Assembly: GCA_037043015.1 (NCBI GenBank)
Contig: CM073321.1
Coordinates: 32,218,101 to 32,282,100 of the forward strand
Source: Bryum argenteum
Taxonomy: Eukaryota > Streptophyta > Bryopsida > Bryales > Bryaceae
DNA length: 64,000 bases
Direction of reading: 5' to 3'
Part shown: in pieces, positions 15,333 to 61,343 of the stretch
Layout of the letters: each line of letters opens with the position of its first letter
Numbering within the stretch: position 1 is the stretch's first letter
Position numbers and translations under genes: made by a program
Notes under the pieces: generated by a model
Databases searched by the model: none
The model's input: only the letters and a program-made list of their open reading frames with translations
Told to the model about the DNA's origin: nothing

Positions 15333-15407
15333 GAACTTGATCTTTTGTGTTCATGTTTCGTCATCGAGAAGTGTTCCATGAGTTGGATATTTCACGATGT
15401 GTTGCCT

Positions 15408-17094: not shown

Positions 17095-17099
17095 AGGTA

Positions 17100-22773: not shown

Positions 22774-23052
22774 GGCTGCTTGTACAATTGACATGCAAGA
22801 ACATTACATTCTATTGATATCCCTTTCTAGCTGCTTCTTACCGGATTTCTAATATCTTAATTTATCTCAATTGCTAATTATAAGTGATCTTGCTTGGGTT
22901 CACCATACAACACATCTTCATAGTGACACAGGTCCATCTCCATCACAACTTTGCATGTGCACAAGAGTTCAACTTCAGAGCAACAATAGTTTCAGTTTGT
23001 TCATTGATTTTGACCTACGTTCATTTCAGTCACAGTCCTAAGTTAGTGCTTC

Positions 23053-32964: not shown

Positions 32965-34322
32965 ATGACGGAGGAGGGGGGGCGGGTGAGAGAGAGGGGA
33001 GGCGGGTGAGGAAGAGGGGGGGGGCGGGTGAGGAAGAGGGGGGGCGGGTGAGGAAGAGGAGTGGGTGAGGAAGAGGGGGTGGGTAAGAGAGAGGGGGCGA
33101 GATGAGGGAAGGCGGGTGAGGAAGAGGGGGTGGGTGGGTAAGGGAGAGGGGGGCAGATGAGGGGAAGGGGGGGCGAGTGACTCGGGTGGGCAGGCGAATG
33201 ACTCTCTTACCAAATTTTCTTTCCTTTGTTTTCTTATGAGTAGGGCAGGTGCAAAATGGGGTAGGGCGAGTGAGGGGGGAGAGGGGCGAGTGACGGGGGA
33301 GGAGGGGGCGAGTGACTCGGGTGGGGGGGGCGGGTGAAGGAGAGGAGGGGGCGGGTGACTCTCTTACCAATTTTGTTTATTTTATTTTATTTTTCTTTTA
33401 TATGAGTAGGGCGGGTGTTAAATGGGGTAGGGCGGATGAGGGGGGGGGAGGGGGGGTTGACTCTCTTACATTTATTTTTTTTCTCCCTTCGTTTTCTTAT
33501 GAGGAGGGCGGGGGAAGGGGGAGGGGGGGCGGATGACTCGGGCCGGGGGCGGGTACCATTTTTTAATTAGTTTTTGTTTTCTTATGAGTAGGGCAAATGC
33601 AAAATGGAATAGGGCGGGTGAGGGGGAGGGGGATAAGGGAGGGGGGGTAAGTGAGGGAGGAAGGGAGGAGGGAGGGTAAGTGAGCGGGGAGGGTGGGGTA
33701 AGTGAGGGTGGAGGGGGGTAAGTGAGGGGGGAGGGGGGGGAGGGGAGTGCAGAATCTCTCCCTTCTCTTCTTTTTTTCTTCTTCATTAACCTTGATTTTT
33801 CATTAAAATAACAAAGGCTCTTGGATTAGTAAGGCAAATCCAAACATTCTCCCACGATATTTAGGAAGTCAAAATCCCGGAATTCATCGATGAATGTTTG
33901 GATATGCTCACTCCAAAAATACCCTTGCCTTGTTCAAAGAAGGAGAATGGCGAGAGGTATGAGGAAAGCTCTGGCAAACCTCTTGGCAAGGCTCTTGGGA
34001 AGGTAAGGGCGGGTGAGAGGTAGGGGGGGCGGGTAACTCGGGCGAGGGAGCGGATGAGGAGAGAGGGGGCGGGTGACTCTCTTACCAAAAAAAAATTTAT
34101 TTTCTTTTCTTTTCTTCTACTTCTTATGAGTAGGGCGAGTACAAAATGGGGTAGGGCAGGTGACTAGGGTGGGGGCGGGTACCAATTTTTTAATTTATTT
34201 CTTGCTTTTTCTTTCTTTGTTTTCCATTGAGTAGGGCGAATGCAAAAATGAGATAGGGCGGGTGAGGGGAGGGGGGATTAGTGAAGGGGAGGGAGGAGTA
34301 AGTGAGAGGGGAGGGGATAAGT
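32965..34322. repeat. left outer arm of the foldback element
   Basis: Tandem GGGCGGGTGAGGAAGAGG-like units are interspersed with higher-order units of the form GTGACTCTCTTACCAA, a T-rich run, TATGAGTAGGGC and AAAATGGGGTAGGGCG, seen about five times (near 33,190, 33,350, 33,460, 33,560 and 34,070). The block at 33,740-34,010 (AATCTCTCCCTTCTCTTC ... CTTGGCAAGGCTCTTGGG) recurs at 51,836-52,110. The arm ends at the target duplicate GGATAAGT of the giant element. Confidence 0.8.
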
Positions 34323-34345
34323 CGGGGTTGTCGGGACGACCGGAC
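34315..34345. repeat. target duplicate and left terminus of the giant hAT element
   Basis: GGATAAGT (34,315-34,322) precedes the terminus CGGGGTTGTCGGGACGACC. The terminus pairs with the right end, read inverted, at C-GGGTTGTC and at scattered later positions. Nearby GGTCGAC and GGACCATGGTCC-type motifs occur near both ends. Confidence 0.8.
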
Positions 34346-34429
34346 CACGGGCGACCGGTCGACCATGGTCCGTCGTCCTCGCCCCCTAGACTGTTGGTGA
34401 CATAACGGGTTTTTATAATTTACAGGGTA

Positions 34430-34720
34430 AATTACCGTCCGACCGTGGCCGACCGCACCCCGTCCGATCTTTGACCAATGATCGCACCCCCGTCCGACCG
34501 TTTGACCGCCGACCGCACCCCGTCAAGACGCTTCGACCGGCCGACCGGTCACCGGACCGGCGTTTCCCTAAACCGACCGGTGTGCGGACGGACGAGGTCG
34601 GCCGCCCGACCGGTTGATGGACCGGCGAGGTCGGCCGCCGACCGCTGGGCGACCGGCGAGTCGGTCGGCCGACCGACCGTATGGCGACCGGCGAGGTCGG
34701 CCGGCTACGAAAGCCCGACC
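34430..34720 (+). promoter_or_regulatory. CCGACCG-repeat island before the transposase gene
   Basis: A dense run of GACCG/CCGACC motifs (for example CGACCGGCGAGGTCGGCC). It ends about 260 bp upstream of the transposase ATG and is followed by a candidate TATA sequence (GGTATATAAGAG) at about 34,775. It likely combines subterminal transposase-binding repeats and promoter sequence; this role is inferred. Confidence 0.5.
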
Positions 34721-34983
34721 ACTTGTATTTCAACGGTAAAAATTCAAATTTCAACGGTCAAATTCAGGGTTGAAGGTATATAAGAGAAGAGACACAAGGC
34801 CTCATTTCACTTCCGAATTGTGAATGCGACCCAACGTCTCCGAGCTGCATAACTTTATGTTATGTGTCCGTTGCTTGGTACGTATTGAGTTCGGAAGTGC
34901 AGAGTTCGTTTACGAACTCTTGACATTTTTTTCTACATATCTACTACCACGTTTGATCATTTTGAGGTGTCCTACCTATCAAA

Positions 34984-37884
34984 ATGGCCAACAAATCATC
35001 CTCACCTTGGTTCACTGATGTTCATGAAGTACAAGGCCAACCTACCACGACCCCAACGGCCCAATGCAATCTCTGTCATAAGGTTATGAGCAAGAGGCTA
35101 GAACAAACAGATCGATCACCTTGGCTATGAAGGCAAGCGTGGGGTCCGCCTTATCTGATAACGCTTTGTCCAAAATTGAACACCCGAGTGATGGATTTAT
35201 TTCGAAGATGTGACGGGCGGTTCCCTCCACATAATGGAGAAATGAGCGGTGCACATTCAATCCCATCGTCATCAGAAGTTCCGAATGTTGGCACGCCAAG
35301 GTCCACTGGTGGAGACTCTTGCGTGGGATCCTCTCAAGCTACCCCTTCGATTCCATCAACACCTTTAGTTGGATCAATCTCCGCCGTTCCTAACTTCAAG
35401 GACAAGTGAGGTTGGTGGGCATATCAATAGGGCGATGAAACAATCTGTGATTGAAGATGGTTTTGCTGAAGCGGATAGGCGGGAACTAGACATACTTTGG
35501 GCAAAGTTTTTCTATGAAGCAAACGTACCGTTTGTTGTAGCACGGAATCCGAACTTCAAGGAAGCTGCAATGAAAACTGTGTCTTTCCGAAAACCATATG
35601 TCCCTCCTTCTTACCATGACATTCGGACAAAGTTGTTGGGACAAATAAAAAGTGATCTAGAAGGAAAACTAGATAGTAGACTCAAGGAGAGCCTTCGGAA
35701 GTTCGGGGGAACTTTAGCCATGGATGGATGGTCATTTGTGAGTAGTCGCCCTCTTGTGAATGCAATGCTAGTGACTCCTGCTGGAGAGCTTTTTCTTGGC
35801 GCCGTCGATACTACTGGCAAAGAAAAGACAGCAATGTATATGGCCTCTATCATGGTCAAGTTCATCAAACAAGTTGGCCCCGAGAACGTTGTCCAAGTCT
35901 GCACGGACAACGCTTCTGTAATGATTAATGCCTCTCGATTAGTCGTTGAGGATTATATATATATTCATCCAGGGATGCAGCCACGCATGCGATGGATTTG
36001 TTGTTGGAAGATTGGGGAAAGGCGTCATGGGTGAAAGAAACTTTGGAAAAGGCCAAGGGCTTGGTCAAGTTCATTAAAAATCGTCAAATGCCTTTAGCCG
36101 TGTTTCGTAAACACGAGACAAGGTTTAGCCTATTGATGCCTGGGAAAACAAGATTTGCGTGCAATTTTATAATGATAGATCGCTTATTGCAGGTTGGGGA
36201 TTCTTTGGAGCAAACTTTTGTAGATCCCCAGTGGTTGTCATATGCCTCGAAGAAGTCTCTATCAGCTAGAGATAAATTACTGGAGTCCCGCAACGTAAGA
36301 AAAGTGGTTTTGGATGACGGTTTCTGGAAGCGTTGTACAAACTTCCGAGATATGGTGGCCCCAATAGTGTATGCTCTTCGGGAATTCGACGGCAAGGAGC
36401 CTTGTACGGGCAAGGCTTTGCATATCGTTCGTCAGCTCGAGAAGCATGTCTTCGACGCTATCTACGAACCATTTTCTCTCCCGACGGATTTAGCGGACAT
36501 TGCGAAGGAGAACTTTTACGCAAGGAAAAAGATGATGATGACAACAGATCTGCTTTCTGTCTTGGTGCACTTTTGAATCCTTATTTACTACATGACAAAG
36601 AGTTAGCGAGATGATATCGAGGTCTGGCATGGGTGCAGGCGTGTTCTAAAAACTCTATGTGCTCCGGGCACTTATCATGATGTGGCGAATGAATATATGG
36701 CATTTCGAATGAGGAGTGCACCATTTCATGAGATGTTGGATCCTACTGAGTCGAAATGTTCTCCCTTTGTTTGGTGGGAAATTGAAGGGTTTGTTGGAAA
36801 ACTCCTTGCTCCGATTGCAAAGCGAATCCTAGCTCAAACAGTGTCATCGTCGGCGTGCGAACGCAATTGGAGCAGTTACTCTTTCGTTCACGATAGGAAG
36901 CGGAATCGGTTGCTACCGGAAAGGGCTGATGACTTGGTCTTTGTATACACCAACTCAAAGTTACTTGCAAACGCAAAGTTAACAGATGAGAAGAGGTGGT
37001 ACTCGGAGAACTTGGATGTAGAGGATCGTAACGTACGTGACTCCAAGGATGAAGAAACCCCCCATAACTCAATTGGTGAAGGCTTTTCGGATCACGTTTT
37101 AGAGGACCTAGAAGATGACCTCAATAGCATCCCCGCTATGAGCTTGCAAGATGCTTTGAACGTCCCGAACACCACGTATGACTTTGTTGACGATGATGCT
37201 GAGGCGGATGATCCAGATGAATTGTTGCCCCTAGCTCATTTACCACGGTTTCAAAAGGATACCGACAAAGTCACTTGTGATAATACCCCTCGTACCGGAC
37301 TAACTCCAAATACGGACGAGAATGTTGTTCTGAATGTGAAAATCGTGGGGGATGATACTCATGGCCGTATAGTAACGTTTGATCCAATAACGAGAAATAT
37401 GACGTCCGCCACTACGGACGAACCTGCGTTGCCTGCTGTTGCCTCTCGATCTCTATTTCAAAAATGTGATGTAGAGGTCCCTACAGTGATGGAGAAATCT
37501 TCCAAACGTTTGGTGTCACTTTCAAATCAAGTGCGACCCCGAACAGTACGTACCAATATCGGCAAAATCTCTAGTGACTCTGATGTACCGCTTCTTCAAT
37601 TGGGATACATGAACCTTCCAGGAGGTTCAGGGCTACGGAAGAAGCAGCCTCCAAGAGTTATGACGAAACGTAAACCAATGCTTCCGTTTCTTCATGATAA
37701 ACCGAAGAATCCTCTTGATGCCATTGAGAATGCGGGAAAATTCAAGATCATTCATCCGGGAAGTCACAAACGAAGAATCAAACAAGAAGTTAGTAGTGAT
37801 TTCGAAGATGACCCTACGGGATCTAGCGGAGCTGAAGTCAAAGGAGACAGCGATTATGCAATTCCCACCGATGTGGATGAATAG
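34984..37884 (+). pseudogene. hAT transposase (BED zinc finger, DUF659, hATC), frameshifted
   Basis: The start MANKSSSPWFTDVHEVQGQ leads to the first half of a BED zinc finger (CNLCHK); its second half (IDHLGYEGKRGVRL) is in another frame. The DUF659 region (35.4-36.0 kb) has FFYEANVPFVVARN, FGGTLAMDGWSFVSS (Asp-Gly-Trp, likely first catalytic Asp) and VVQVCTDNASVM (second Asp). After a frameshift at about 35,970 it continues with LLEDWGKASWVKE and GKTRFACNFIMIDRLL. Another shift occurs near 36,500. From 36,682 an open 400-codon frame holds the hATC dimerisation motif (SSSACERNWSSYSFVHDRKR) and a long acidic tail ending with DSDYAIPTDVDE. Three or more frame breaks make this copy inactive. 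The gene lies in the left gene pair and converges with the RING gene, with a 338-bp AT-rich gap between stop codons. Confidence 0.9.
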
Positions 37885-38222
37885 AAATTAATTACATGCT
37901 CAGACACGTAGTAGAGGTCTAGCATACTTCGTGTATGTTTCGGGTAGTATAGCTCGTGAAACTTTATTACCAAACAGTTGATGTGTTTGTACTTTATTTT
38001 GTCTGAAAATGTCGGTGAATAGTCAACAAAAGACTATTACATCATAAGAAATAAAAAACTTCATTACAAAAACCATGCATTACAAATCCAAAATGGTATG
38101 CGACTCTATTCCGGGAACTATAACCGTTCTAAACCGTCTACGCTTCTATTGGATTTCTATCACATTGCAACTGAATGCTCTTCTGTATCAATCGTATGTG
38201 CTATACTACGAGTCCGGGGTCT

Positions 38223-40392
38223 TTAGCTTGGTCTAGCAATTCTACCGCCCTCGTCGTATTCTTGATCCACTGCAGCAATTTCTCTGTTGTTGCCCAACAT
38301 CCAACTCTCGTCGCTCTCATTGCCATCATCCCTTTTTCGTTTCTTGGGTGGGTTAGCATTTTTGGAACGGAAGATTTTCATGGCCTCCTCGATTCGTCCC
38401 ACCACATCCTTCACAAAGGAGTCCTCTGCTGTGATAGACACCAATAACTCCGGCTTGGGGTCTTTGATCATTGTCGTCCAATGAGTAATGATGTTCTTAA
38501 TGCGCCACTCAAATTTCTCTACCGCCTCCCAGAAAGTACAGTCTGCGTCTTTGAAAGATTCCTCCTTCGTTGAAATCCGTAAGTGTGCGGCCTCTTCCAA
38601 TTTCGCTAGGACTAAAACCCTTCCAATCGGGCTATCATCGTACTTCTTGTACTCCTCTCCAAACTCAATGTCACTTGTTACCTCATGCCACAAACCATCT
38701 TCTCCCTTCTCTACTCTCTTTGGAGGGGATCGGAAAAACGATTGTGTTCGATCTCAATGTCCTCCAAAGTTGCGGCAAAACATCTCTCGTTGCTCATTGT
38801 CTTCAATATCTCGCGCCCTAATCTCCACCTCGTAGTCACGTGTCATCCAAAGCAATGGATCTGTCTCGCCTACATACTGCTTGAGGAGCTGGTGTTTTGA
38901 TGTTGAACTATCCCATTCAAGTGCTTTCCCCCACTCACGAAAGTTGTGAAGTTTCTTTGGAAGTTGATCCAAAGGGAGATTCCATCGGTTGAACTCGTGC
39001 CCAGTGGCATGACATCGTGCATCCCCATCACTTCGTAGAATCTCGTGCTAATTGGAGAACGACATATAGGACATGATGATTTTCCCGGCAAACTTGCTAT
39101 GCAAGTAACATGAAAGTTATGGCCACATTGGCCCAGTGTGTACGCTCCTTCTGGACCGAAATGATATCGGCACATGCCACATTTTTCCTTCAGTATTGTC
39201 GGGGGGGGGGGTCGCATGTGTAAACTACATTTTGATTTGATTCCACAAAATGCGATGAGAATGAGTTGTATGGCACCCATCCTTCTGCCACTTCCAAACT
39301 TCAATCAGTATCATCATCTTTTCCCATCCGATTGAAATTTGTTCGCTCCATCATCTCCTCCACATCACCCCAAATAGTGACCTTAGTAGGTTCGTGTTCT
39401 CGTAATCTTTCGTATTTTTTAAATTCCTCCAATGATGTATTCACATGTTCACTCGAACCATATGATTTGGCGGCGATCTTCTTCAGATCATGTTGTGCCT
39501 TTGAAACCATGGCCTCCCTATCTTGACGTCGGTGAACCCAAGCCAACCAAGGCAATATGTTCTCTTCGCGTGGTGTATAATCCACATTTCTCAATGCCAT
39601 TCGTATGGATTCTAGTTCAGCTCGTGCCTCATCTCTCTGCTTCATCATTGCCTCCAATTGCATTTCCAATGTTTCTTTAGGACATTGATTATGTAGGCAA
39701 GCTTTTCCCTTCGAATGTGTATCATCCTCTATACGCACGCCTCTCCTTCCATTGTCCTCCGATTCCGTATCATCTTCCAAATTGATGATTTGTTTTCCTT
39801 TATCCTGCGTATTGAACCGTGCTTCCTTCTCATGAATGTCCTCTGCTGCCTCAGTAGGCCCTGGCTCGCATGATGGAGTACCTTTCATCTCCGGGCCATC
39901 ACTCTTATTATTCCCATCATAATTAGATGGGATAAGATCACCTTCCCTTTCGATCCTTTCTTCAATTTTTGAAATTGGAGAAATAGCTTTTGGATTTAGG
40001 GGAAGATCTTCCACATCACCTTCTTCGAGAGGATTCAAAATGTTCATTGCTTCCTCCATGAGTTTGCAGTAGTACGGGGATTTTCTGCGCTCATATCCAT
40101 TAAGTTTGAAATCATAAACCACCTTTTCAATCACGGCAATTGCTACGGAATACTTCGCCTCAAGACTAGAAAGATCCTCCAAATCCTTTATCCTTGATTT
40201 CATATACGGGAGCCATTTCTCTGATATCTTCTCGTAGTCTATAGCTGCTTCTAGCATTCGAGGCATCATTAGGGCAAAAGTTTTAGACATTTCTAAAAAC
40301 TGTGGAGCCATAGCAGCAAGAACTTCAGTCCCGATTTTCATATCGGTCCCAGCTTCCAATATTGAGATTTTTTTGGTGTCTTCCCACTTCAA
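38223..40392 (-). pseudogene. RING-H2 finger protein gene carried by the giant element
   Basis: The first frame (40,392-39,301) encodes a long helical, acidic N-terminal half starting MKWEDTKKISILEAGTDMK. It includes a coiled coil near residue 245 (LEAMMKQRDEARAELESI). After a TGA the same frame reads on for about 35 codons, until a run of about 11 G (plus strand, from 39,201) shifts it. The next frame holds a RING-H2 finger, C-x2-C-x14-C-x-H-x2-H-x2-C-x9-C-x2-C (CGMCRYHF ... SCPICRSPI). Two more frame changes lead to a C-terminal part (38,693-38,223) with VVGRIEEAMKIF and a basic PPKKRKR patch, a possible nuclear signal. RING-H2 proteins usually act as E3 ubiquitin ligases. The full protein would be about 700 residues. 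I do not know a transposon protein of this architecture. Confidence 0.7.
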
Positions 40393-40439
40393 CTTCGTCT
40401 CACCATCTGGAGCCGAACCCTCGTATCCGGACGGCCCTT

Positions 40440-40680
40440 TATAGTGCCCTCATGCCGGACCGGCCGACCGAACCGCCGACCGGGCATGGCCGTCGGAAGC
40501 CCCGGACCTGCCGACCGACCCCCGGACCTGCCGACCGATCCCCCGGACCGGCCGTCGGGCCATTCGGGACCGGCCGACTGATCGCCCGGACCGCCCGGGC
40601 CTGGCCGACCGACCCTGACCGCCGAACCTTCGCACGCCAGGCCTGGCGGACCGGCCGCCGGCCCCCGCTCTAAACCCTAA
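40440..40680 (-). promoter_or_regulatory. CCGACCG-repeat island before the RING gene
   Basis: GC-rich run of CCGACCG/CCGGACC motifs directly upstream of the RING ORF start at 40,392, matching the island before the transposase. It ends with TAAACCCTAACCC, a degenerate plant telomere-like motif. Confidence 0.5.
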
Positions 40681-41794
40681 CCCAAAAATTTCTTGGGCCC
40701 GTTTACACACCCTAGGCATCAACCAATGAGAATCTATCTATCTCTAAAATTTTAAATTTGGGCCCTCGAAGTGGGCATTAGGACTTTATATTGCAAGATC
40801 CACTCTATGACCCACTTTGTAAAGTACAGCTAAAGTTAAGGCCCACTTTAAGTCCAAGTGGGCTCAACTCCAAATGGGCCCAACTTCAAATGGCCTCTAA
40901 TATAAAGTAGCCGTAAAAAGTGCCAAAACCCCTCAAAACCAACTTGTTATGAATTTCACTTCAATCTGAAAATGATGAAATATTTCACTTCAATCTGAAA
41001 ATGATTTTGAATTAGAAATACCAAATTCTATGTTTTGAGTGATCTTGAATTAGAAAAGACAATTACCAACGTTAGAAGCGCATGTAAATAAACGTGAGAT
41101 AGATCTCAAGAAAAAAGATATGTCGATAAAACTTTCTTCCCAAATTGTGTAAACTTTCTCTACCAATTTAAAGTTGTTTTTTTTAGGTTTGTTTTAGGTT
41201 TTTTTTTAAAATTAGACCTAGTTGCTTAAAAGTTCCTACTTAACCGTCTCCCTTGGAACGAATTCCTTATACTAATAGGATAATTATAAACTGGTAATTA
41301 TTGTTTTTCAACAAGATAGATAGATAAGAACTCCAATTTTCATATCGAATATAACAATTGTATATAAATATAACCAAAGAACTCACAACAAAAAATAGTC
41401 TCTACCTTCTTACCGACGAGTTTATATATCCATCTAAAAGTCTTTCTATAGTCTTTTACTTTCCTATTTCTATAAACAAATCTTATCAATAGATCAATTA
41501 GAGAAATCTAACTCTTCATGTATTTAAACTATTTATATTTAAAGTAGGATGTGTATATTTATGTATATACTATGTATTAATAAATTGGAATATGCATATT
41601 TATGTATGTACTTTCTATTTTCAAAGTAAATATGTATATGAAGGTATATATTATATATAATATATATTATAATTGTATTGTATCATGGTTGAATATTTAA
41701 TAAATATAATATTTACTATATACATGTATAGTATGTATATTTATGTATTTACTTTTTGATTTACAGTTCTAGCACACAAAGTAGAATTGATTTG

Positions 41795-42031
41795 CTTTAC
41801 CTCTAAATATGTATTTAAAGAGAACCACTATTTATATAGAACTAGTTTACCTCTAAATAAATTTTTAGCCTTAAATCGCTATTAATGTAGAGTGACTTTA
41901 CCTCTAACTATGTTTTTAGCGAAAACCGCTATTTATGTAGAGTGACTTTACCTCTAAATATGTTTTTAGCAAAAACCGCTATTTATGTAGAGTGACTTTA
42001 CCTCTAAATATGTTTTTAGCAAAAACCGCTC
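41795..42031. repeat. 50-bp tandem repeat, about 4.7 copies
   Basis: AGTGACTTTACCTCTAA recurs at 41,891, 41,941 and 41,991 with an exact 50-bp period. Each unit continues with a GTTTTTAGC block and an AAACCGCTATTTATGTAG block, and two more diverged copies lie upstream. Copies contact each other directly with no spacers. Confidence 0.9.
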
Positions 42032-42419
42032 TATCTTTACCGTATAGTGTATATATATTATTTATTTAATACTTCTCATGTCAGAGGGGACCCAAGTTCA
42101 GAACCAGCATCCGGGATGAGACTATAACATGTCCAATATATAATAAAGGAATTAGCCTACAAAGGTTTGTAAAATAATGTATTGGATATGGAAAAATAAA
42201 AATATTAGCCAGGAAAAATTAATAAATCCTAGACCATAAACCTTAAATCCTATCCACAAGTGATTTTATCCACAATATACTCTAAATGAAAAAGCGATGG
42301 CTATTCATAACATTCTATTCCCTAATCAATCAATTGAAGTTTCTAATATAAGAATAATCAACTTCTTTTAACATAAAATAGAAGTACTATACGTGCACAA
42401 GATCAAATATGATTATAAC

Positions 42420-42735
42420 TTTATAAGTTGATGCCATTATTGCCACATGTTAAAAACTTATAGGGTGCGATATTTTTATACATTTATTTGTAACGCTTTT
42501 TACTTCTCTTAATTTATGATCACAAAATAGAAAACAATAGAACTGTATTTCTATTACCTTTACAAGAGGTAAATAAATAATTACTCAAATAAATACACAA
42601 CGATGGAGTTATTTCTAAATGCACATCAAATAATATAGAGCATAAAATGTGGACAACTAAAGGGCTAAATAGGAAGTTTAAATATTGACTAATACGGTAA
42701 TACCAAAGTTATGAAAACAAAATACTCACACATGC
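42420..42735. repeat. duplicated block, copy 1
   Basis: Runs from a TTGATGCCAT start to CTCACACATGCTC. It recurs in the same orientation at 44,170-44,590 with shared landmarks (GTTAAAAACTTATAG, TTTTTACTTCTCTT, AATAGAAAACAATAGAA, GGTAATACCAAAGTTATGAAA). Diverged by substitutions and indels. Confidence 0.8.
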
Positions 42736-43424
42736 TCACCTACATTTAATATATACTTAGATCTCTCCAATGTTAGACATAAGTATACTCTCATCAAGGA
42801 ATAGCTAAAAAGTCCCGAACGTGATATGAGAGGATTTAGGGCCACCTCAAAGTGCACAATAGGGGCCAAGCCATTAATGGGGCCAATACATGAGAACATC
42901 TCGTTGTGAGAATGGATCAATTTTTGACAAAAGTTGGGACATTCAAGAAATGAATGTCAATTCATGGCCTAAAAGCGTTTTCTTGATTCAAATTAAGAAA
43001 GAATATTTTTAAGAAATAAAATCAATGAGAACAAATCTAAAACATGGACTCTAGCTAATAATAAGAATTGGCCCCATAACCTTCGTTTTCCTTCTAGAAA
43101 TGGGCACCAACTCCCAACACCTTCACAAATGGGGGAATTGGCATGGGAGATATGTTGGCCTTGACTCCTCTTGTAAAGAGTCCCTTATTATAGAATTATT
43201 TAGAGCCTAGAGTATCTTTGTCATAAAACATTCTTGTTTCTGACAAAGAGATCTTCCCGACATTCCCTTGTCAGAACATTCCCTACCCTGATTTAGACGC
43301 CACGTGGACGCGAGACGCTAAATATAGAAATGCAAATATGCAATGCAGGGACGTGAGAGAAGTTGAGGAAACGGGGAGTCTTGGCCTTCTGGGGAGAGGC
43401 AAGAAGAGGAGGGGGAGGGAGGTA

Positions 43425-43620
43425 CGCGGGCCGACCGACGGATAGTCGACCGGTCGGTCGCCAGGCGACCATGAGCGCCGGTCGGTCTCGGACCGTCCCG
43501 GTCGCTTCGGCCCCCCGGTCGCTGGTCGGTCGGTAGGCGGTCATGCGTCCCTCCGATCGGTCGGCAGGCACGAGCGCCCGTTGACCGATCGTACATCGCC
43601 ATCGAGCCGGCCGCTGGGTT
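43425..43620. promoter_or_regulatory. central CCGACCG-repeat island
   Basis: Same motif type as the gene-flanking islands (GACCGGTCGGTCGCC, GGTCGGTCGG), but with no ORF on either side. It lies between the two gene pairs and ends in a T16 run. It may mark a lost gene or an internal junction between two fused elements. Confidence 0.4.
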
Positions 43621-43815
43621 TTTTTTTTTTTTTTTCTTCTTAGTTTCCAATGTGTTACTGAAATTTTTCAAAATTTCATAGGATCCTTTTTATATTTTAA
43701 TCCCTCTCAGATTTCTGTTATTAGATTCTCAGTGATTATTACACAATGAAAAAAGGAATCCTATGTTGATTTGTGAAATGCTATATATTCTTTATTCACG
43801 GATAGGGTTCGGTGG

Positions 43816-43836
43816 TTTAGGGTTTAGGGTTTAGGG
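43816..43836. repeat. short plant-telomere-type repeat (TTTAGGG)3
   Basis: Three exact TTTAGGG units. It is interstitial and far too short for a telomere, but the motif supports a plant source. Confidence 0.8.
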
Positions 43837-43842
43837 TTCTCA

Positions 43843-43928
43843 TTTTAATATAGGACCCTTATTTTGGGAATGCGACATTTGGTAAAAAATGGGCATTAAG
43901 TTTGGGGAGTCTATAATCTTAGATCCTA
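43843..43928. repeat. 86-bp direct repeat, copy 1
   Basis: TTAATATAGGACCCTTATTTTGG ... GGGGAGTCTATAATCTTAGATCCTAT, shown by landmarks only. It recurs at about 44,636-44,725 in the same orientation with few changes. Confidence 0.85.
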
Positions 43929-44169
43929 TGTTGAATGTTGAAAATACTACCAATATATTCCTTGCAATAAACTCGTGATTTATTCCATGTCAATAACATC
44001 TTCAAACAAAAATAAATAAAAACTAGATTATTTTGCAAATAATAACAATGCGATGGAGAAAAGTGGCATTGTAATCGATTAAAAATACAATTCAATACTA
44101 CACCATACATACACGAATCCATTATTTTCATTCCACACACAATTGAGTTTCCAAAGATTTCCAACACCA

Positions 44170-44725
44170 ATCTTTACAAGTTGATGCCATATGTTAAAAA
44201 CTTATAGAGTGGGATATTTTCAAAAATTTATTTGTCTCCCTTTTTACTTCTCTTTATTTGTGATCGCGAAATAGAAAACAATAGAATTGTGTTTCTATTA
44301 CCTTTGTAAGAGGTAGATAAATAATTATTCAAATAAATACAATAATAAAAATGCTACTAATAATTATGTAAAAAGAATATGTGCAAATTAAGTACAATGA
44401 TATGTACTACAATATAAATATACTCCTAGCTTAGTTCAAGGGTGTCAAACAAAAATAGCCAATAATAGAATGAGTTGTTTAAGCACAATGTTTTTTAAGT
44501 TAAGAGTATTCTTATGTCTAAATGTGGTCAATCTAAGGCCTAACACGGTAATACCAAAGTTATGAAACTAAATGGTCACACATGCTCTATAACTCTATTA
44601 CAATATTACATGGTTGAGAATATAAATTGTGCATCTTCATTTTAATATAGGACCCTTATTTTGGAAATGCGTCATTTGGTTAGAAATAGGCACTACGTTT
44701 GGGGAGTATATAATCTTAGATCCTA
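44170..44725. repeat. duplicated blocks, copy 2
   Basis: 44,170-44,590 is the second copy of 42,420-42,735, and 44,636-44,725 is the second copy of 43,843-43,928. The two duplicated blocks keep their order but not their spacing. This suggests a tandem duplication of about 1.75 kb followed by deletion. Confidence 0.75.
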
Positions 44726-46165
44726 TTGCAAAAAAAAAAAAAACTTATTTTGTTCCTATAAGTCATTTTGAAGTATTCTAATTATAATGTGAATAAGAAT
44801 GATATTAGAAAATATGAGTAATTATTATATACGATATAAAGAAAACCACGTCCATTTACATAAAATTCAAGTGGGTTAGACTCAACGAATTTGAAAGAAA
44901 CATATATGATAATAAAATTAAAGAGTATATGATGAAAGTAAATGATGAAATTTTGCTTTTAGAATTAATTTTTTTTTAAAATATAGTATGTAGGTTGTAG
45001 AGTTTAATATTCTCAGTATACATATAATGAACGTTTGACCTCAATACTATTGTAAGAATACGAAATGCTAGAATGAAATCCAATAAGTACATATAATTCA
45101 TACAGGAAGCCAAAAGAATACAAAGCATGAATGTGAGAAAGATTCATTATAATGTAGGAGTTAGGAGTAATGATCAAACGCATTTTATATTATTTATATG
45201 CATTCTCTATGCTTAAACATTACCTCTATATAAGTTAATTTATATCCATAAGAGTCTTATAGAAATATAATATTTTAAACCTACTATTCACATGGAAGAC
45301 ACAAATTAGGATACACTAGATTCTATCATCCCTGGTTCTAAATTTGGGATGCATGTATGTATAATGGAATTTATATGTTATATGTTTTATACCTACACAT
45401 ATTTTCATGAATGCCAATAGCCTTCTATTATAGTTCATGATAAAATATATTTTTCTGCTAATACATGTTCATTGTAAGTTTGTAACCCTTAACCTCAAAT
45501 GCCCAAGGGGGGTGTAGACTCTAGAACCTAGAAACACACGTTTTGCAAAGTGCGAGAGATGAAAATGAAGGTTAGCAATCTAGATCTCAACCATACAACA
45601 TTGTAGAGGACTTGGTTTAGGTCATGTGGAGGAAATTTGGACTCATGAAGCCCCATAGATTGCGAGATCATAACATATTATTACTCAACAAAGATCATAA
45701 AATTTCATCATATTCACCTTGAAGTGAGAATGCAATTATTATAGGTATTGGCGTGGATTGAAAAGTAGGTCCTTTGCTCAAAAGTGAATGGCATATCTTC
45801 GTCGCATCTTTGATGGAAGTAAGGTTTCCGGTAGAAAAACAAGTTCCAAATTCAAATACAACCGAACTAACAAAATTGAAATCCAAATGATGGATGAATG
45901 AGAAACTCATTGAAAAACCATGTATTATTTTAATTTACCCAAGATAGAACATCATTGCAAAATAATCCAAGACCTAAACTATTAAAAAAAAATTCCTTTC
46001 TTCGTGGGCCATGGGAAAGCATGCCCCATGTTTGAAAAAATCAAAAAACAAGACCTGTCTCATCGATCGTTCATTTTCTTTTCTTTTGCAATGGAAATCC
46101 ACCATTTGTCTCAAAAAAAAAAAAAATAAAAAAAAAATAAAAAATAAATAAAACAAACAAACAAG
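44726..46165. other. AT-rich interior of the giant element, no gene
   Basis: No frame with recognisable protein character. It ends with A-rich low complexity at 46,109-46,165, just before the next GC island. Confidence 0.6.
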
Positions 46166-46169
46166 ACTG

Positions 46170-46460
46170 CCGACCAGGGGAGGGGCGGCCGACCGCGATC
46201 GGACGGCCGGCGATCGCCCTCGACGACGTCGTCGGGACGGCCCGCCGTCGATCCGATCCGTCGGCGATGGACCGGCTAGATCCGACGGCCGCGACGGATC
46301 TGTCGGCCCGATCGGGCGGCTGGATCGGTCGCCATTGCGGGCATCGGATTGGCCGACCGATCCAGCCGACCGATGGCGGAATCGATCACGCTAAACCGAG
46401 ATCGGACGGCGGGGCGAACGGACGAATGCCGACCGCCCCGATCGGCATAAATAAATAGCC
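46170..46460 (+). promoter_or_regulatory. CCGACCG/CGATCGG island before the repeat-protein gene
   Basis: GC-rich run with many GGCCGACCG, CGATCGG and CCGATC motifs. It ends just before a candidate transcription start region and a short upstream frame at 46,586. Confidence 0.5.
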
Positions 46461-46585
46461 GGGGCTCATTTCTCTTCACTCGTGTGTGCAACCTGGTCGC
46501 TGTGTTTTCCATGTCGATTGCGCTCCTCGAGTCCCTCTTGATAATCGACGCCTTTTTTGCGCTTTTTTTTTTGTGGCTGAACAAT

Positions 46586-46870
46586 ATGCCGAGGGAACGA
46601 CGTACTAGTGCACCCAAGGGCAAGGCCCCGGAGATGGATCAAGAAGCAATCGATGATCCAAATTGTGTCGCCAAGATGGATGGGAAGATGAACCGGCGAG
46701 AATTTGGAATTGCACCATGTGCAAGCGATTTGTGAAGATGAAACACCTCATGAAGTTATGGCCAAGAAATCAAGCGATTATATCGGGGCCACGACGCCGA
46801 AGGTCTAGCCGCCAGATTCACAAGTCAACATTTCACGCCGATATCATGAAGTGACCATTGCCGTTGGAGT
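46586..46870 (+). pseudogene. N-terminal exon or fragment with a possible zinc finger
   Basis: A start at 46,586 reads MPRERRTSAPKGKAPEMDQE. After a frameshift near 46,685 it reads ARIWNCTMCKRFVK, then HLHEVMAKK. A CxxC pair after Trp, followed by a HL...VMAKK element, recalls the first part of BED fingers at the start of hAT proteins. It probably belongs to the repeat-protein gene that follows. Confidence 0.4.
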
Positions 46871-46946
46871 ACGGAATACTAGGCCGGAAATCATGTTATA
46901 TTCCAACATGGCTATGGTTTGGGCGTAAATCGTTCTACATAAGAAC

Positions 46947-48167
46947 GTGAATTGGAGCACCGTAATGAGTTTGAATGTTGCCGAATTGGATCGGAGCAAT
47001 GATTTCATACCAACTAGTTGGCTTGGACCCAGTGATCGTATGCCCCTTTGGTCGAATCGGACATATACGGAGATGTCGGAAGTTCAAGATGAAGAAAGTA
47101 CACCTCCAAGGAGATATGGAGGTCAAACACGGATTTCTCAAGATACACCTCCAAGGGGATACGAGGGTCAAACACAACATCAACAAGATACACCTCCGAG
47201 GGGATACGAGGGTCAAACTGAACATCAACAACATACACCTCCGAGGGGATATGAGGGTCACACAGCAGATAATTATAATCGCAGCAATAACAGGGGTATG
47301 GCACCAATATCTTTTGGCATAGGAAGTGGTGGGTATTATCCCGGTAGCAATATATACGGTCCAGGAACCACTACTCCTGAGACATATAGGACAGAGCATC
47401 CAAGGGATACGTACCAATCCAGAGGCCAACACGATACAAGTCCGAATGCTGGAGGAAGATATATGCCAACATATCCTCGGGATACATACAAGTCAGGAGG
47501 CCGATACGGTAGAATGAGTGCTCCGGAGAGCTATACGCCAACATATCCTCGGGAATCTAACGATGTTCCCGGCCAATATGGTAGAGGTACCAGTAGTCCA
47601 GAGAACCATATCCCAACACATCCAAGGGACACATACGAGTCTCGAGGCCAGTATGGGAGAGGACCTAACATTCGAGAAAGGTACCCCACAACGTATCCTA
47701 GTGGATCATACGATGCTCACAACCAATACGGTAGAAGACCTGAGGTTCCAGATAGCTTTAGACCAACGTATCCAAGAGATACGCATGATCATCACGGCGA
47801 GTACGGTAGAGCTATTACCAATCCCGAGTACCGTACTCCAAGTCAAGCAAGAGATGAATACAAGCCTAGTTGGAATTACCGGAACAAGGATCGTGAAGAG
47901 CATATCACTCAGTATCCATATCCTGGGTATGGCCAATATGCATATGGGAGTAACAACACTCCCCCGCCACCATTCCGAACTCGTGAAGAAGAAGATGCAG
48001 AGTTTGAAAGACAACTACGAGAGGCAACAATTCAAAGTCAAGCGGAGTACATCCGCAAGCTTGAAAATGATCGTATTTACGACGAGCAGCGCTTGTATGA
48101 TGCTTATTCGCGAGGGCAGTTCTCAGACCAAGCAGGGCCAAGTGGAACACAAGATGATAAGGACTAG
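46947..48167 (+). CDS. Tyr/Gly/Pro-rich repeat protein carried by the giant element, 406 residues
   Basis: An intact frame from ATG to TAG. After about 50 residues come four copies of a 15-residue repeat (TPPRGYEGQTQHQQD type; DNA 47,099-47,265). A linker follows, then about six copies of a 24-25-residue repeat (TYPRDTYxSxGQYGRxxxPE pattern; about 47,390-47,850). A charged helical C-terminus follows (EEEDAEFERQLREATIQSQ). The composition is low-complexity and probably disordered, with Tyr and Arg spaced regularly, as in proteins that self-associate or bind nucleic acid; that role is inference. It is the only gene of the giant element without a disruption over this length. The true start may lie upstream, near 46,586. 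It converges with the kinase gene. No homologue recognised. Confidence 0.6.
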   Translation: MNWSTVMSLNVAELDRSNDFIPTSWLGPSDRMPLWSNRTYTEMSEVQDEESTPPRRYGGQTRISQDTPPRGYEGQTQHQQDTPPRGYEGQTEHQQHTPPRGYEGHTADNYNRSNNRGMAPISFGIGSGGYYPGSNIYGPGTTTPETYRTEHPRDTYQSRGQHDTSPNAGGRYMPTYPRDTYKSGGRYGRMSAPESYTPTYPRESNDVPGQYGRGTSSPENHIPTHPRDTYESRGQYGRGPNIRERYPTTYPSGSYDAHNQYGRRPEVPDSFRPTYPRDTHDHHGEYGRAITNPEYRTPSQARDEYKPSWNYRNKDREEHITQYPYPGYGQYAYGSNNTPPPPFRTREEEDAEFERQLREATIQSQAEYIRKLENDRIYDEQRLYDAYSRGQFSDQAGPSGTQDDKD

Positions 48168-49377
48168 GATGCAAAGTACTTATACATTTACATATAGGCA
48201 TGTTGTAATGTACTGTACGTACATGTAGTATTTGGATGAGAACTCTATTCTCCATATGGTAGAGGTCATTTTTTAAGACCTTCTTAACCATGTTTTGTTG
48301 GTAAACGGACATCATATGAATCATATAAGGAATGTAGAACCATGACCGATATTACACATTTATTTGAGTAAATATGTTATGATTCCATTTATTAACCAGT
48401 AAGAATTTTAGTGTTTTTGGAAGCTTGAAAGTTGAAACCTCCTGCTCATAACTACGATTTCCTACGTGTATGTACTCTCGGAGTATGTACGAATTATTTT
48501 TATCTATTTAATACATTCAACCGTAAGATCGTGAACCGAAGCCTATTTTAAGTTACTATTTTAAAAAGTGACCTTAGGATGTTTATCATTTGCGAGATCC
48601 TAACATCCAAATTTTGTTTAAAACTTTATTTGGGATTTGCTCCGGAGGCAGTGTCTCCACGGTGCAAAGGTGGAGTTGGAGATTGTTACCAACAAAATTT
48701 TGGTCATATTTTTTCCCATGTATGTAATCAAGTGTAGTAAATTCATGCAAAATTTGGGAGCCTCATTCCTCTTGATTGACATTCTTACAAGTTATTTTCT
48801 AAAAGCAGGTCCGAAAACAATACTATAGTAAAACATGCACGTCGTTATGTATATTTCGTATTATATAGAACTTAAAGTGGGTTATGTGAGTGTAGGAGTT
48901 TGTGATTTTTGAGGTAACTTATTTCTAACAGTTTTCCATAATCTAAAATTTTGACAAATTTTGAAATATATAATTCATAATTTACTAATACATTTTGAGC
49001 TTGTGTTGGTAATTTCTGGAGGCTGCCACTGTAAAATTGGTAAATACTATGACTTAAATATTTTTGGAATTTCAGTAGTGATTGGCTTATAAACATATGA
49101 GAAGAAAAATAGAAGATAAATCGCTAATTTTGAATTACCCAACCAACACTTAAAAATTGAATCAATAGGTTTTTTTGGGCTTTACCCTAAAGGCCTCATC
49201 CAAATGGTGCAAAGGGGCAAAATATTATAATAAACATAAGTGTACTTGGTGGGCCAAAATTTGAAAGGCATGCAATGCATTTGAAACAAAGAGTATTGTT
49301 GGAGTGAAAATAGAACATGCATACTAATTCATAAACTATAATAAAACCGATATGAGTAAAACAAATTCTACGTTTTC
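48168..49377. other. AT-rich spacer between convergent genes of the giant element
   Basis: No coding signal. It would hold the 3' untranslated regions of the repeat-protein gene and the kinase gene. Confidence 0.6.
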
Positions 49378-50866
49378 CTATTCGTAATTCGTCCGAAAAT
49401 GCTCATGAGGCGTGGGCCAATGAAACATTTCGCTAAAGCGTGAGATGATATGGGACAACCCTCCAGCGCCGTCACGGCTCTCGTTGCATACTCTATCCAT
49501 GTAAAGATGGAAAGCTTGTGCAAGGTCTTCATTGGAAAATACCGAAGTATTTCGGTTTCCACGTTGCAAGCTCGTCGTCGCCGTAGACATGGTCATCCCA
49601 TTAATTCTTTGTGCTATACGGGCCGTGGCAAACTCCTCCAAAGCAATCGAGTATTTTGGAATAACTCGTAAATCCTCACCCGCTTTGTACAAGAACGCCA
49701 CTCGTGGATCTACCCAATAACGTTTTCGCAGGGTCTCCACCATGTCCTCACGTTTTGTGAATGTATAAAGGGATTGCATTGGTTCCTGAACCGTTGTGGA
49801 AAAGCCCCAATCGCATACTCCGATATACACTCGTGATTCATCAGCAGGGAAGTGGAGAAGGATATTATCTGGAGATATATCGTTATGGAGGTGGTGGCTC
49901 TTGTGGACCTCGTTCATGATATGCAACAACGCCCAAGCAAGCTCTGTCCGTTTTTTACGGAATCGAATCAGTTGATGAGCCCGAATAACCTCGTCATCAG
50001 GGCAATTCCCAAAGTTCAAATGTACAAAGACATCGTCACCATAATCCATATCGCGGTTCAGCATCTCTCGAATAGTCCCGCCATTCCACCAAAACGCATA
50101 GCCTTGATTCTTCACTGGATGAATGGCCACAAAGCGGATCACACCAGGGTGTCTAATCCTTATCGCCATAGACTCATTCATATGCTCCAATTTTGCCAAC
50201 TCCGGTCGTGTCAACAAGTGAATGGAAGTTTTTGCAGCAAATTCCCAAATTGGTTCAATGCCTGCAAAACCTTCAAAGCGAACTTTGATAATAGTACCAT
50301 ACCGTCCCCTTCAACCTCGTCTTTGTCAACTCGTATGATTTGGGTCAGATATCGGAATGGTAACCAAATGAGTCAATCGCATGGTTTGAGTTTGTCGTCC
50401 CTCAAGGGATTGCCACCATGTTCCAAAGCCTCGACGATGTGAATTCTTTGAAAATGCCCTCATTTGGGCAGAAAAACAATCAGCCCTATTCACCACGTCA
50501 ACGAAATCCTCATCACCCTCCCGAAACATCCTTCCATATTTGGCTATTACAACCTTGGGATTCCGTGAGTGCATCCTTCACCCTATTATCCAAAAACCAC
50601 ATGAACCCTCGTTTCTCTGTCTCTGCTACCCACTTCGGATGCTGAAGCACTTCTATCATGAGATCTCTCATTTCAAGCTTGAACTTCTCGATGCCCTCCT
50701 CCTGATATCTCACATATTTGCTTTCCAATGCTCAAAGATCATTGGCCTCATAGAATTTGACGGTAAATTCTATCAAGAATACCTTACAAGCGTCACCCGG
50801 GACCTCATGAGCCTCGAACTTCTCAAACAAGTTCGCACCACCCTTCCTCTTCTTCTCCTTCGGCAT
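49378..50866 (-). pseudogene. atypical protein-kinase gene carried by the giant element
   Basis: It starts MPKEKKRKGGANLFEKFEAH at 50,866, a basic start that could be nuclear. One TGA interrupts the frame at about 50,734, and frame changes occur near 50,515 and 50,215. The final 279-codon frame (50,217-49,378) is a kinase-like domain: IRHPGVIRFVAIHPV (N-lobe strands), FWWNGGTIREML (hinge side), HHLHNDISPDNILLHFP (catalytic loop with HND for HRD, keeping the Asp and Asn) and VYIGVCDWGFS (metal loop with DWG for DFG). After that comes KRYWVDPRVAF in place of the usual APE. Because Asp, Asn and metal Asp survive, the ancestral protein may have been active. No VAIK lysine or glycine loop was identified. 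Its pairing with the repeat protein mirrors the transposase/RING pair. Origin from a host kinase is an inference. Confidence 0.7.
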
Positions 50867-51089
50867 CTTGATCCCAAAAAAGGAAATATGTAAAGAAAGT
50901 GTAGTAAGTTTTTAAAAAAACTTTTCAAAAAAAAACAACAAAAACTCCCCCCGTATAACGAGTAACTTCCTTCCTCCAAAAGACAAGGAGCCAGTGGACA
51001 GGAATTACAAGAATTCCCAGCCAGAGACACTCCGCATCCTCTCTTCATGAGAAATGGAGAAAAGAAGTGGAGGAAAAGGAGGCCGGTCG

Positions 51090-51600
51090 GCCTTTTATAG
51101 CGGCGGACGGCCGGCCCTGGATCCGACGGCCGATCCGTCGCCTGGCCGACCGATCGGACGGCCCGCCCGGATGGCCGACCGATCCGACGGCCCGCAAGGA
51201 TGGCCGACGCGGCCGACCGCCGGCCCGATCGCCCACTACGGCGACCCGACCGCTTACTGGCCGACCGACCGCCCGCTGGCGCCGACCCGCCCGCCTGGCC
51301 GACCGACCGCCCGCTGGCCGACCGACCACCCGCCGCCGACCGAAGCCGCCCGCCGCCGACCGACCGCCGCTTGGCCGACCCGATCCAGCCGTCGGACGGC
51401 CCGACCGCCGCCGACCGACGGCTCGGTCGGCGCGCCGATCCGATGGCCGTCGGGCATGCGGACGGCGGACCGATCCAACGGCCCGCAAGCGTTTACATTT
51501 GATCCGACGGCCAGGATTTGATGCGGTCGGCCGCCGTCCGATCTGACGGAGCGACCGGAGGTTGGTCGGCCGGCCAAGGGATCAAATTTTGACGGTGAGA
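51090..51600 (-). promoter_or_regulatory. CCGACCG-repeat island before the kinase gene, at the right end of the element
   Basis: The longest island: dense GGCCGACCGA, CCGCCGACC and CCGATCC motifs. It lies upstream of the kinase start and inside the right terminus. Long Pro/Arg-rich frames across it on both strands are composition artefacts. Confidence 0.5.
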
Positions 51601-51742
51601 TCTTTGCCAGTGGATGATCCAACGGCCCCTGAAGTTACCAGGGACCGGGGTAACTCCCATTTACCCCCCCGGACCATGGTCCGGACTATAGACCCGGTCG
51701 ACATAGTCCGGACTACGTCCGCGGACTAGGTTTACCCCGAAT

Positions 51743-51772
51743 GTCGACCGATTTGACAACCCTGGGATAAGT
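51743..51772. repeat. right terminus and target duplicate of the giant hAT element
   Basis: GTCGACCGATTTGACAACCCTG ends at 51,764; inverted, it begins CAGGGTTGTCAAATC. The duplicate GGATAAGT follows at 51,765-51,772. Confidence 0.8.
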
Positions 51773-59357: not shown

Positions 59358-60365
59358 CAACTTGGTGGATGCGCAACTTGCGCACATCAAGAGTTGCAAG
59401 AGTCCGGCGGAAGCATGGAGCGTGCTTTGTAACATCCACGAGACAAGAAGCTTGTCCTACATACTCTATTTGAGGCGCAAGTTCTTCACAATCAAGATGG
59501 AGGAAGGGGCGGACTTGTTGGAGCACATCAACAACATCAGGACACTTGCGGATCAACTCGCATGCTTGGATGTGCCCATGAGGGAGGATGACATTGTCAT
59601 GACATTGTCATGACATTGCTTGATAGCTTGCCACCTTCATTTGAGAGTTTGATCACCGCATTAGAGACCTTAAAACTTGTTGACCTTAAAATGGAGTTTG
59701 TGGTATTATGGTTGATGCAAGAAGTATCCAAGAGGAAGGAGAAGAGTGCTCAAAGTGGTGAGACAACGTTGGTGGCGGCCCAAAACAAAGGGAGGATGCA
59801 AAATGGCCCAAGAATGTGCTACAATTGTGGCAAACCGGGCCACATTGCTAGGTATTGCTTTCCAAACAACAAGAAAGAGAAAGAGAGTGCCAATGTTGCA
59901 AGCAACAACGATAACGAGGCGGATTATGCGTTTCTAAGCGCCGTTGTTGCAAGCAAAGAGGAGATGGAAGTGGAGCATGCCTTTGCAATCAATGATGGAG
60001 ATGACAAGACCATGGCTAAGTGGATCATGGATTCGGGAGCAACCAAGCACATGTCACCCCATAGGGCATCATTCCAAACAAATGAGATAATATTACCACC
60101 ACGAAATGTGCACTTGGGAGATGATAGCATTGTGCATGCGGTTGGAGTTGGCACTATTGTTGAGGAGGTGATGGTGATGGGAGTGAAGCACAAGATCAAC
60201 ATGAAGGAGGTGCTCCACATCCCCAAGTTCAAGAAGACCTTGATTTCCGTGGTAAAACTTGCTCTAAACGGGTTTAAAGTGGAGTTTGATGATGATGCAT
60301 GCATTGTAAGAGATGTGAATAGAAAGGTGATTGCTAGATTGCCAAAGAGTAGGGAGCTTGTATGA
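59358..60365 (+). pseudogene. copia gag C-terminal part and protease
   Basis: Gag resumes as VDAQLAHIKSCKSPAEAW and continues as a helical UBN2-type Gag region (LRRKFFTIKMEEGADLLEHI). An 11-bp microduplication at 59,588-59,612 (ACATTGTCATG repeated) shifts the frame. The second frame holds LDSLPPSFESLITAL, the zinc knuckle CYNCGKPGHIARYC (CX2CX4HX4C) and the protease active site KWIMDSGATKHMS. It ends at a TGA after KSRELV. Protease processes the polyprotein in the particle. Confidence 0.9.
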
Positions 60366-61343
60366 AATGCCCTTTTCCATGCATAAATGACCGATGTGGC
60401 ACACGAAATGCGACAATTAGCCCCTTTGGAGCTATAGCATAGACGCCTTGGGCATTTGAATCTGAAGAGTATCAAGGCGATTCAAAGCATGGTGAAGGGC
60501 ATGCAAATCAAGGATGGAGCATCGAATTCGGCGGTTTGTGAGGGGTGCTTTGAAGGCAAGCTCTCAAGGACTCCATTTCCAAGTGAGGGAGGTCAACGTG
60601 CAAGCAAGTCTTTGGAGTTAGTCCACTCGGATGTGTGTGGTCCATTTAAGACCATTTCTATGCACGGTTGCTTGTACTTTGTTACTTTTATTGATGACTT
60701 CTCTAGAAATGTGTGGGTGTATGTGTTGAAGTCCAAGGGAGAGGTGTTTGCCAAGTTTGTGGAGTTCACGGCCCTTGTGGAGAAGCAATCGGAGCACAAG
60801 ATCAAGGCATTTCGGTACGACAATGGAGAGGAGTTTACTTCTTGCAAGCACATGGCATTGAGAGGCAACTATCAACACCATACACTACAACAAAATGGAG
60901 TGGCGGAGAGAGCAAATCGCACCATTGTGGAGATGGCAAGGAGCATGCTACACCACCAAAACCTCAACAAGAACCTTTGGGCGGAAGCGGTGGTTACAGC
61001 GGTGTACACACGCAATAGGTGCCCAACTAGTGCACTTGTTGGTAAGACACCCGAAGAGGCATGGAGTGGTAAGAAGCCTTTTGTGACACACATGCGTGTG
61101 TTTTGGTGTGTTGCTTATGCAAAGGTGCCGGATGAAAAGAGGACTAAACTTGATGCAAAGAGTACAAAGTCCGTGTTTCTTGGTTATTGTGGAGGAACCA
61201 AGGCTTATAGGTTGATGTGCTTGGAGACCAAGAAGATCCTCAAGTGTTGTGATGTAGTATTTGCGGAGGATGCTACTTGTGGAGATGCAAATGTGGAGAT
61301 GCATCCAAGTGGGAGTTTGGAGCCACCTATGGTGATTTTGTAG
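60366..61343 (+). pseudogene. copia integrase
   Basis: After two stops the pre-integrase zinc module is read as HRRLGHLNLKSIKAIQ and CEGCFEGK (HHCC). The core carries all three catalytic acids: LVHSDVCGPF (Asp), RYDNGEEF (Asp) and NGVAERANRTIVE (Glu, about 35 residues after the second Asp). The C-terminal part includes the LGYCGGTKAYR motif typical of copia integrases. A TAG ends the frame after EPPMVIL. Integrase joins element DNA to the chromosome. The core is intact, but it could not be expressed without the upstream frame. Confidence 0.9.

Follow-up and report, generated by a model that had tools for sequence, protein, structure and literature searches.

A 17.4-kb hAT-type transposon with four genes in the genome of the moss Bryum argenteum

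The element, its ends and its genes

We analysed a stretch of 64,000 nucleotides from the moss Bryum argenteum (C1:32218101-32282100, here called the window), in which a hAT-type DNA transposon of 17,442 bp, carrying four genes, lies in an array of host sequence. The features of the element are given below by position in the window; gene models were taken from sibling copies elsewhere in the genome.

34323..51764, plus strand: whole element, 17,442 bp (C1:32252423-32269864), delimited by its ends, the genome copies and the flank alignment
34315..34322: left target-site duplication, GGATAAGT
51765..51772: right target-site duplication, GGATAAGT
34323..34332, plus strand: left terminal inverted repeat, CGGGGTTGTC (CAGGGTTGTC in most copies read)
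51755..51764, minus strand: right terminal inverted repeat, CAGGGTTGTC on the minus strand
33573..33831, plus strand: paralogous empty stretch of the host array, from the flank alignment
34984..37884, plus strand: gene 1, hAT transposase (DUF659 and Dimer_Tnp_hAT), frame-broken, start taken from a sibling frame
38150..40426, minus strand: gene 2, RING-H2 protein, limits approximate
39059..39184, minus strand: RING-H2 domain of gene 2 (Pfam zf-RING_2)
46549..48167, plus strand: gene 3, N-terminal domain in common with gene 2, then tandem peptide repeats, start approximate
47099..47264, plus strand: 45-bp tandem repeats encoding the peptide repeats of gene 3
49378..50866, minus strand: gene 4, predicted protein kinase, about 495 amino acids (aa) in intact copies, frame-broken in the window

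The two termini, CGGGGTTGTC and GACAACCCTG, are 10-bp inverted repeats with one mismatch, and an exact 8-bp duplicate flanks them, as the original prediction had it. The duplicate GGATAAGT is insufficient by itself because a chance match is too likely in GA-rich DNA: for a random pair of 8-mers, one from each 300-bp flank, the probability of identity is 1.7e-4, and for 100-bp flanks it is 1.7e-3. When the flanks were joined without the element, they gave a single alignment of 263 columns through the junction to 33573-33831 (78%), and this match includes sequence that is not GA-rich on either side of the junction. The stretch 33573-33831 is a paralogous empty site; the original prediction had claimed that removal restores the host array. 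Together with the genome-wide recurrence of the ends and the 8-bp duplications particular to each copy (see below), this alignment settles the duplication as real, and a chance agreement in GA-rich DNA, against which the original prediction had warned, was rejected. The window element is a real hAT-type DNA transposon, and everything between its two ends was mobilised as a single unit; the ends, the duplications and the transposase domain point to cut-and-paste movement by a hAT transposase.

The product of gene 1 matches Dimer_Tnp_hAT (PF05699) with 36.8 bits in the window and 35.7 bits in the sibling copy c1l (cut-off 21.4), and DUF659 with 83.4 and 119.3 bits, respectively (cut-off 34.7). 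The positions that we take to be its D-D-E residues look canonical by eye. All four of the genes that had been predicted are present, but in the window copy, which is decayed, all four are damaged: the transposase reading is split over three frames, gene 2 has lost an N-terminal block of about 1.17 kb at 40426/40427 (present in the siblings c1j, c1k and c1l), the match to gene 3 falls into two parts, and the kinase no longer has an unbroken frame. Gene 2 has nine relatives in public data, four of which are 1,061-1,110 aa long with a RING-H2 match. Gene 3, taken earlier for a disordered repeat protein, does encode the repeats, but they form only the tail of a protein that starts with the same domain as gene 2 (33% identity, E 6e-16 in a single comparison, profile probability 98.7).

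A 498-aa open kinase frame was found in 5 of the 26 copies of gene 4 that were read. There are 53 homologues in the protein collection, 21 of them 487-502 aa and most others shorter, and the closest named one is M758_3G001500 of Ceratodon purpureus (76%). In the 24 homologues (of the 53) that were aligned, K212, H327/D329, N334 and D352/G354 are invariant, and DWG replaces DFG. The structural model, with a predicted local distance difference test score (pLDDT) of 77, was matched by Foldseek to the best solved kinase with E 2.0e-7, probability 1.00 and template modelling (TM) scores of 0.27/0.43. Pfam Pkinase stayed under its cut-off in the proteins scanned, and PF07714 was barely above its own for P0002 (23.2 vs 23.1). 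Judged by its modelled fold and by the catalytic Lys, HxD...N and DxG, the gene 4 product is a protein kinase. Another homologue, P0020, is filed in a 'Bacilli bacterium' metagenome bin, probably a case of plant DNA binned with bacteria.

The element is also rich in the motif CGACCG. Counted with its complement CGGTCG, the motif occurs 57 times inside the element vs 4 times in the remaining 46 kb of the window, and it is gathered in the following places (counts as CGACCG:CGGTCG).

34323..34742, plus strand: array at the left end, upstream of gene 1, 15:2
40403..40742, plus strand: array upstream of gene 2, 5:0
43323..43822, no strand assigned: central cluster, 9 matches with both orientations counted
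46163..46442, plus strand: array upstream of gene 3, 4:1
51043..51622, plus strand: array at the right end, upstream of gene 4, 15:3

One orientation is dominant in the four array stretches examined for it (39:6).

Copies in the genome and a second family

We searched the genome (259 Mb, 25 contigs) with the two ends of the element, a check that the original prediction had proposed. There were 115 first-look candidates for the left end and 112 for the right, and the best 40 were scored for each; ends were paired in the correct orientation, 14 loci were fetched and a further 10 giant copies were checked at their ends only. Copies with both ends and with different 8-bp duplications were recovered. 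Four more giants, c1j, c1k, c1l and c6m, measure 18.3-24.2 kb and follow the window copy colinearly, at 90-97% in blocks of at least 1 kb, and c1d is an 8.5-kb deletion form without 34.56-43.5 kb. An exact 8-bp duplication flanks 8 of 15 giant copies, and its sequence differs from copy to copy (GGATAAGT in the window; CTTTTGAC, GTCAAAAG, CTTCGAAC, GTTTGAAT, GTTTTTTG, GTCGTGGT and CTTCTGAT in the others). Among the remaining giants, one matches at 7 of 8 bp, two have reciprocally swapped flanks, three have no duplication (c1k, C6:1.33 and C1:42.46) and for one (C1:36.60) the left end was not found.

The two giants with swapped flanks lie in equal orientation at C1:39.51 Mb and C1:39.93 Mb, with flanks ACAATATC/TGTGTACC and TGTGTACC/ACAATATC, which suggests either an assembly fault or recombination between copies that involved the intervening stretch of roughly 400 kb. 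A 24-kb copy at C6:16.67 Mb has about 7.1 kb between the equivalents of 40426 and 40427, as against about 1.17 kb in three siblings and none in the window copy.

The shorter copies, c1d and nine others of 5.9-10.4 kb, all have an exact 8-bp duplication (10/10), and the right terminus is mutated in two. Across the 18 exact duplications there is a preference for T at position 2 (10/18) and A at position 7 (12/18). The nine have the same ends as the giants. Eight of them also match the giants at 66-77% in one block, which is 173 bp or about 770 alignment columns long; c1n, the ninth, has no common block above the printed threshold. Sequence comparison found no match in these nine to any of the four genes. 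They are likely a non-autonomous family, and such gene-less copies probably moved in trans. Open frames of another kind, 128 and 233 aa long, lie in the 10.4-kb copy.

Searches with stretches of the kinase, transposase and RING genes gave 304, 329 and 282 first-look candidates, of which the best 40 were scored in each case. Among the best 40 of 329 transposase matches, at least 21 have a kinase match in the same orientation 15.5-22.9 kb downstream (chance about 0.002 each), at least 21 are followed 4.6-5.5 kb downstream by a match to the RING gene, and at least 12 have both.

The same genome holds a second family, B, besides that of the window element (family A). With the distant kinase P0026 as query, the best 86 of 1,078 first-look candidates were scored, and 61 of the 86 places are apart from the 40 listed kinase places of family A. 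Two of these family B places, B1 and B2, were read. Both have all four genes in the order and orientation of family A, with proteins 33-69% identical to those of family A, and the CGACCG clusters of B1 lie at places corresponding to those of the window element. B1 and B2 are 92-94% alike in blocks longer than 1.5 kb; vs the window element they are about 70-73% alike in the three largest coding matches. The family B termini are 10-bp inverted repeats, CAGGGATGTC, and exact duplications were found in three of four elements: ATCTCAAA for B1 (17,242 bp), TTCATCGC for B2 (17,364 bp) and GCAGGGTT for C9:4.97 (17,263 bp), the last known from its ends and kinase match only. For the fourth, C5:22.15, the left end was not found. 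The four-gene set is old and common to two diverged families of one genome. What had been proposed as a class of large, multi-gene hAT elements from one locus now comprises giants with matching genes and ends but different duplications, and a second family with all four genes.

Constraint on the genes and alternative explanations

Nonsynonymous and synonymous divergence (dN/dS) between the families was estimated by the NG86 method from one copy against one per comparison, with dS near saturation. The values were 0.214/1.069 and 0.482/1.311 for the transposase, 0.574/1.408 for gene 2 (0.217/1.047 for its RING part), 0.343/1.868 and 0.589/1.717 for gene 3, and 0.374/1.373 for the kinase. With dN/dS below 1 in every segment, all four genes are constrained between families, as far as such ratios tell. 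Within family A, variants of the kinase were divided among the 26 copies into private and shared ones. The private variants comprise 126 nonsynonymous, 50 synonymous and 13 stop changes (expected synonymous 50.4/189), giving a neutral omega of about 1.01. The variants common to several copies comprise 37 nonsynonymous, 29 synonymous and 2 stop changes (expected synonymous 18.1/68), giving an omega of about 0.49 (P 0.001), and the control in the +1 frame gave 1.30. By these counts, the pattern is that expected of a gene needed by a mobile lineage and decaying freely once inserted.

We consider it highly probable that the window holds a decayed copy of a giant four-gene hAT element equipped with accessory proteins. 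Several results weigh against this reading. Seven of the 15 giants lack an exact duplication. No intact transposase was found in the seven giants read wholly or mostly (five of family A, B1 and B2), and the element is at most a candidate autonomous transposon. The TM-scores of the kinase fold matches are low (best 0.27 of query), and the predicted structure of gene 2, with a mean pLDDT of 36, was too poor for use. The gene-less short copy c8a has CGACCG clusters too, with 47 matches in 7.3 kb. The within-family test is noisy, since the +1-frame control for private kinase variants gave 0.78 (P 0.06) and the kinase signal weakens to 0.66 (P 0.21) for variants in at least four copies. For the other genes, five copies of family A were compared. 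Shared omega was 0.24-0.70 and not significant for the transposase (P 0.06-0.41, four partly overlapping segments; +1-frame control 1.64). The outcome was mixed for gene 2, with 0.45 (P 0.27) and 0.97 (P 0.60), and for gene 3, with 0.27 (P 0.047) and 0.44 (P 0.12) in overlapping segments.

That no intact transposase was found in these seven would fit a giant non-autonomous element, in which hAT ends carry along the kinase, RING and repeat genes and the transposase is supplied from elsewhere, and nine gene-less short copies with the same ends likewise suggest movement in trans. The copies read are a small sample, however, and the transposase sits at the same place in both families with a dN/dS of 0.214/1.069 between them, so that we regard this explanation as unlikely. 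Less likely still is that the accessory genes are passengers without a role for the element, that is, host genes caught by a hAT transposon as in Pack-type capture. Capture of host gene fragments by plant DNA transposons is described in PMC6431247, but here the four genes, their order and their orientation are alike in two diverged families, dN/dS between the families is below 1 and the shared kinase variants are constrained.

A division of the element into two was also weighed. The original prediction had named internal termini near 40.7 kb and 46.2 kb as the sign of two separate elements side by side. No exact terminus pattern was found inside the element in the 14 fetched copies; both places are present in four giants among them, and c1d has the right one. 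With up to two mismatches allowed, scattered inner matches appear in every copy (4 to 11 each in the window copy and five siblings), none of them near 40.4-40.8 or 46.0-46.5 kb in the window copy. Single matches with two mismatches lie near the corresponding places in c1j, c1k, c6m and B1 and are not common to all copies. Among the copies examined, none ends near 40.7 or 46.2 kb. The stretches at 40.4-40.7 and 46.2-46.4 kb are the CGACCG-rich ones that lie upstream of gene 2 and gene 3, and B1 has corresponding stretches. Two adjacent elements were rejected on the absence of exact inner termini and of consistent ones at up to two mismatches. The same evidence, from the four sibling giants and c1d, makes it very improbable that two smaller adjoining elements move jointly as a macrotransposon, as do the three family B elements of 17.2-17.4 kb with exact duplications. 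That arrangement would account for the two tail-to-tail gene pairs, each flanked by CGACCG-rich stretches, and for the N-terminal domain common to genes 2 and 3; the lineage may go back to an old fusion or duplication.

Large DNA viruses commonly carry kinase and RING genes, which could hint at the remnant of a large virus or of a virus-transposon fusion. The kinase model does match viral kinases (best E 1.1e-6), and it matches cellular ones too (2.0e-7). Scans of viral contigs with the kinase and gene 2 found no relative of either, and the Pfam matches of the scanned frames (9 open frames, 6 proteins) include no capsid or polymerase. We rejected a viral source on the contig scans, and a viral remnant has scarcely any probability left. 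A scan of bacterial and archaeal genomes found no kinase relatives there.

Relation to known transposons and possible roles

Like the hAT elements Ac, Tip100 and Hermes, the moss element has a transposase with the dimerisation domain Dimer_Tnp_hAT, 8-bp duplications, short inverted ends and shorter copies with the same ends. Its inverted repeats, CAGGGTTGTC in family A and CAGGGATGTC in family B, are 10 bp long, within the 10-25 bp of the superfamily. PMC3942097 states a length of 2.5-5 kb for hAT elements, a descriptive and not a defining trait, whereas the moss element is of 17-19 kb with four genes (17.4 kb in the window, 18.3-24.2 kb in the siblings, 17.2-17.4 kb in family B). Every defining hAT feature tested is present, and the element is new by its size and its gene kit.

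The Mutator-like VANDAL elements of Arabidopsis also have accessory genes, same-orientation motif arrays and, in VANC, an accessory protein with tandem peptide repeats (PMC5735166). In contrast, the moss element has inverted-repeat ends and a transposase matching hAT, not Mutator-like, families; its accessory products are a kinase, a RING protein and an uncharacterised domain, and an anti-silencing role for them would be by analogy. The fungal ToxhAT/ToxTA (14 kb) is likewise large, has several genes and was formerly called hAT, but it has a TA duplication and 74-bp ends, and its authors now put it nearer Tc1/mariner (PMC12506042). Pack-MULEs and other gene-capturing plant transposons also hold non-transposase genes between transposon ends, but these are varying host fragments, whereas the moss element has constant whole genes constrained between families. 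In search listings of the open-licence literature of PubMed Central (PMC) we found no description of a giant multi-gene hAT element. A term search of the accessible text of a review of giant eukaryotic transposons (PMC6431247) did not find 'hAT superfamily' or 'kinase', and one of the accessible text of a 2026 review of plant gene capture (PMC13317346) did not find 'hAT', 'kinase' or 'moss'.

The window contains other open frames that resemble, by eye, proteins of mobile elements: Ty3/Gypsy-type retrotransposon proteins at 14679-18541 (minus strand), Copia-type retrotransposon proteins at 59592-62798 (plus strand) and a pogo/Tigger-type transposase at 23047-24378 (plus strand, 443 aa).

We picture a moss lineage of giant hAT elements that may have kept its own four-gene kit over a long divergence. 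Besides a transposase and an orphan kinase that is active, the kit would comprise an E3-type RING protein and a partner in which the same domain, directed at DNA or chromatin, recurs. To this fuller picture we give a chance slightly short of even. More loosely held, and leaning to the doubtful side, is the proposal that the three accessory proteins work in the element's favour against the host. According to PMC5735166, VANC counters DNA methylation and binds motifs that lie densely and in the same orientation in non-coding DNA, and on this precedent of motif binding the domain common to genes 2 and 3 is proposed as the array reader. Its targets would be the same-orientation CGACCG arrays found at the two ends and ahead of each gene, where the RING protein and the kinase might mark or remove silencing or repair factors. 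The accessory set would thus resemble a VANC-like counter-silencing system with a ubiquitin and phosphorylation arm added. Alternatively, genes 2-4 may help transposition or repair, or the arrays may be transposase sites only and not targets of genes 2 and 3, a reading that the clusters of c8a, a copy without the genes, would fit.

If the counter-silencing proposal is true, this would be the first plant transposon known from the open-licence PMC literature with its own phosphorylation and ubiquitin-ligase arm managing silencing or repair. Independently of that proposal, this natural family of high copy number extends an intensively studied superfamily several-fold in both length and number of genes, and its intact kinase copies and motif arrays offer a ready system for asking how plant transposons control their hosts. 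With 53 kinase homologues, one of them in Ceratodon purpureus (protein matches only), the question may reach beyond one genome.

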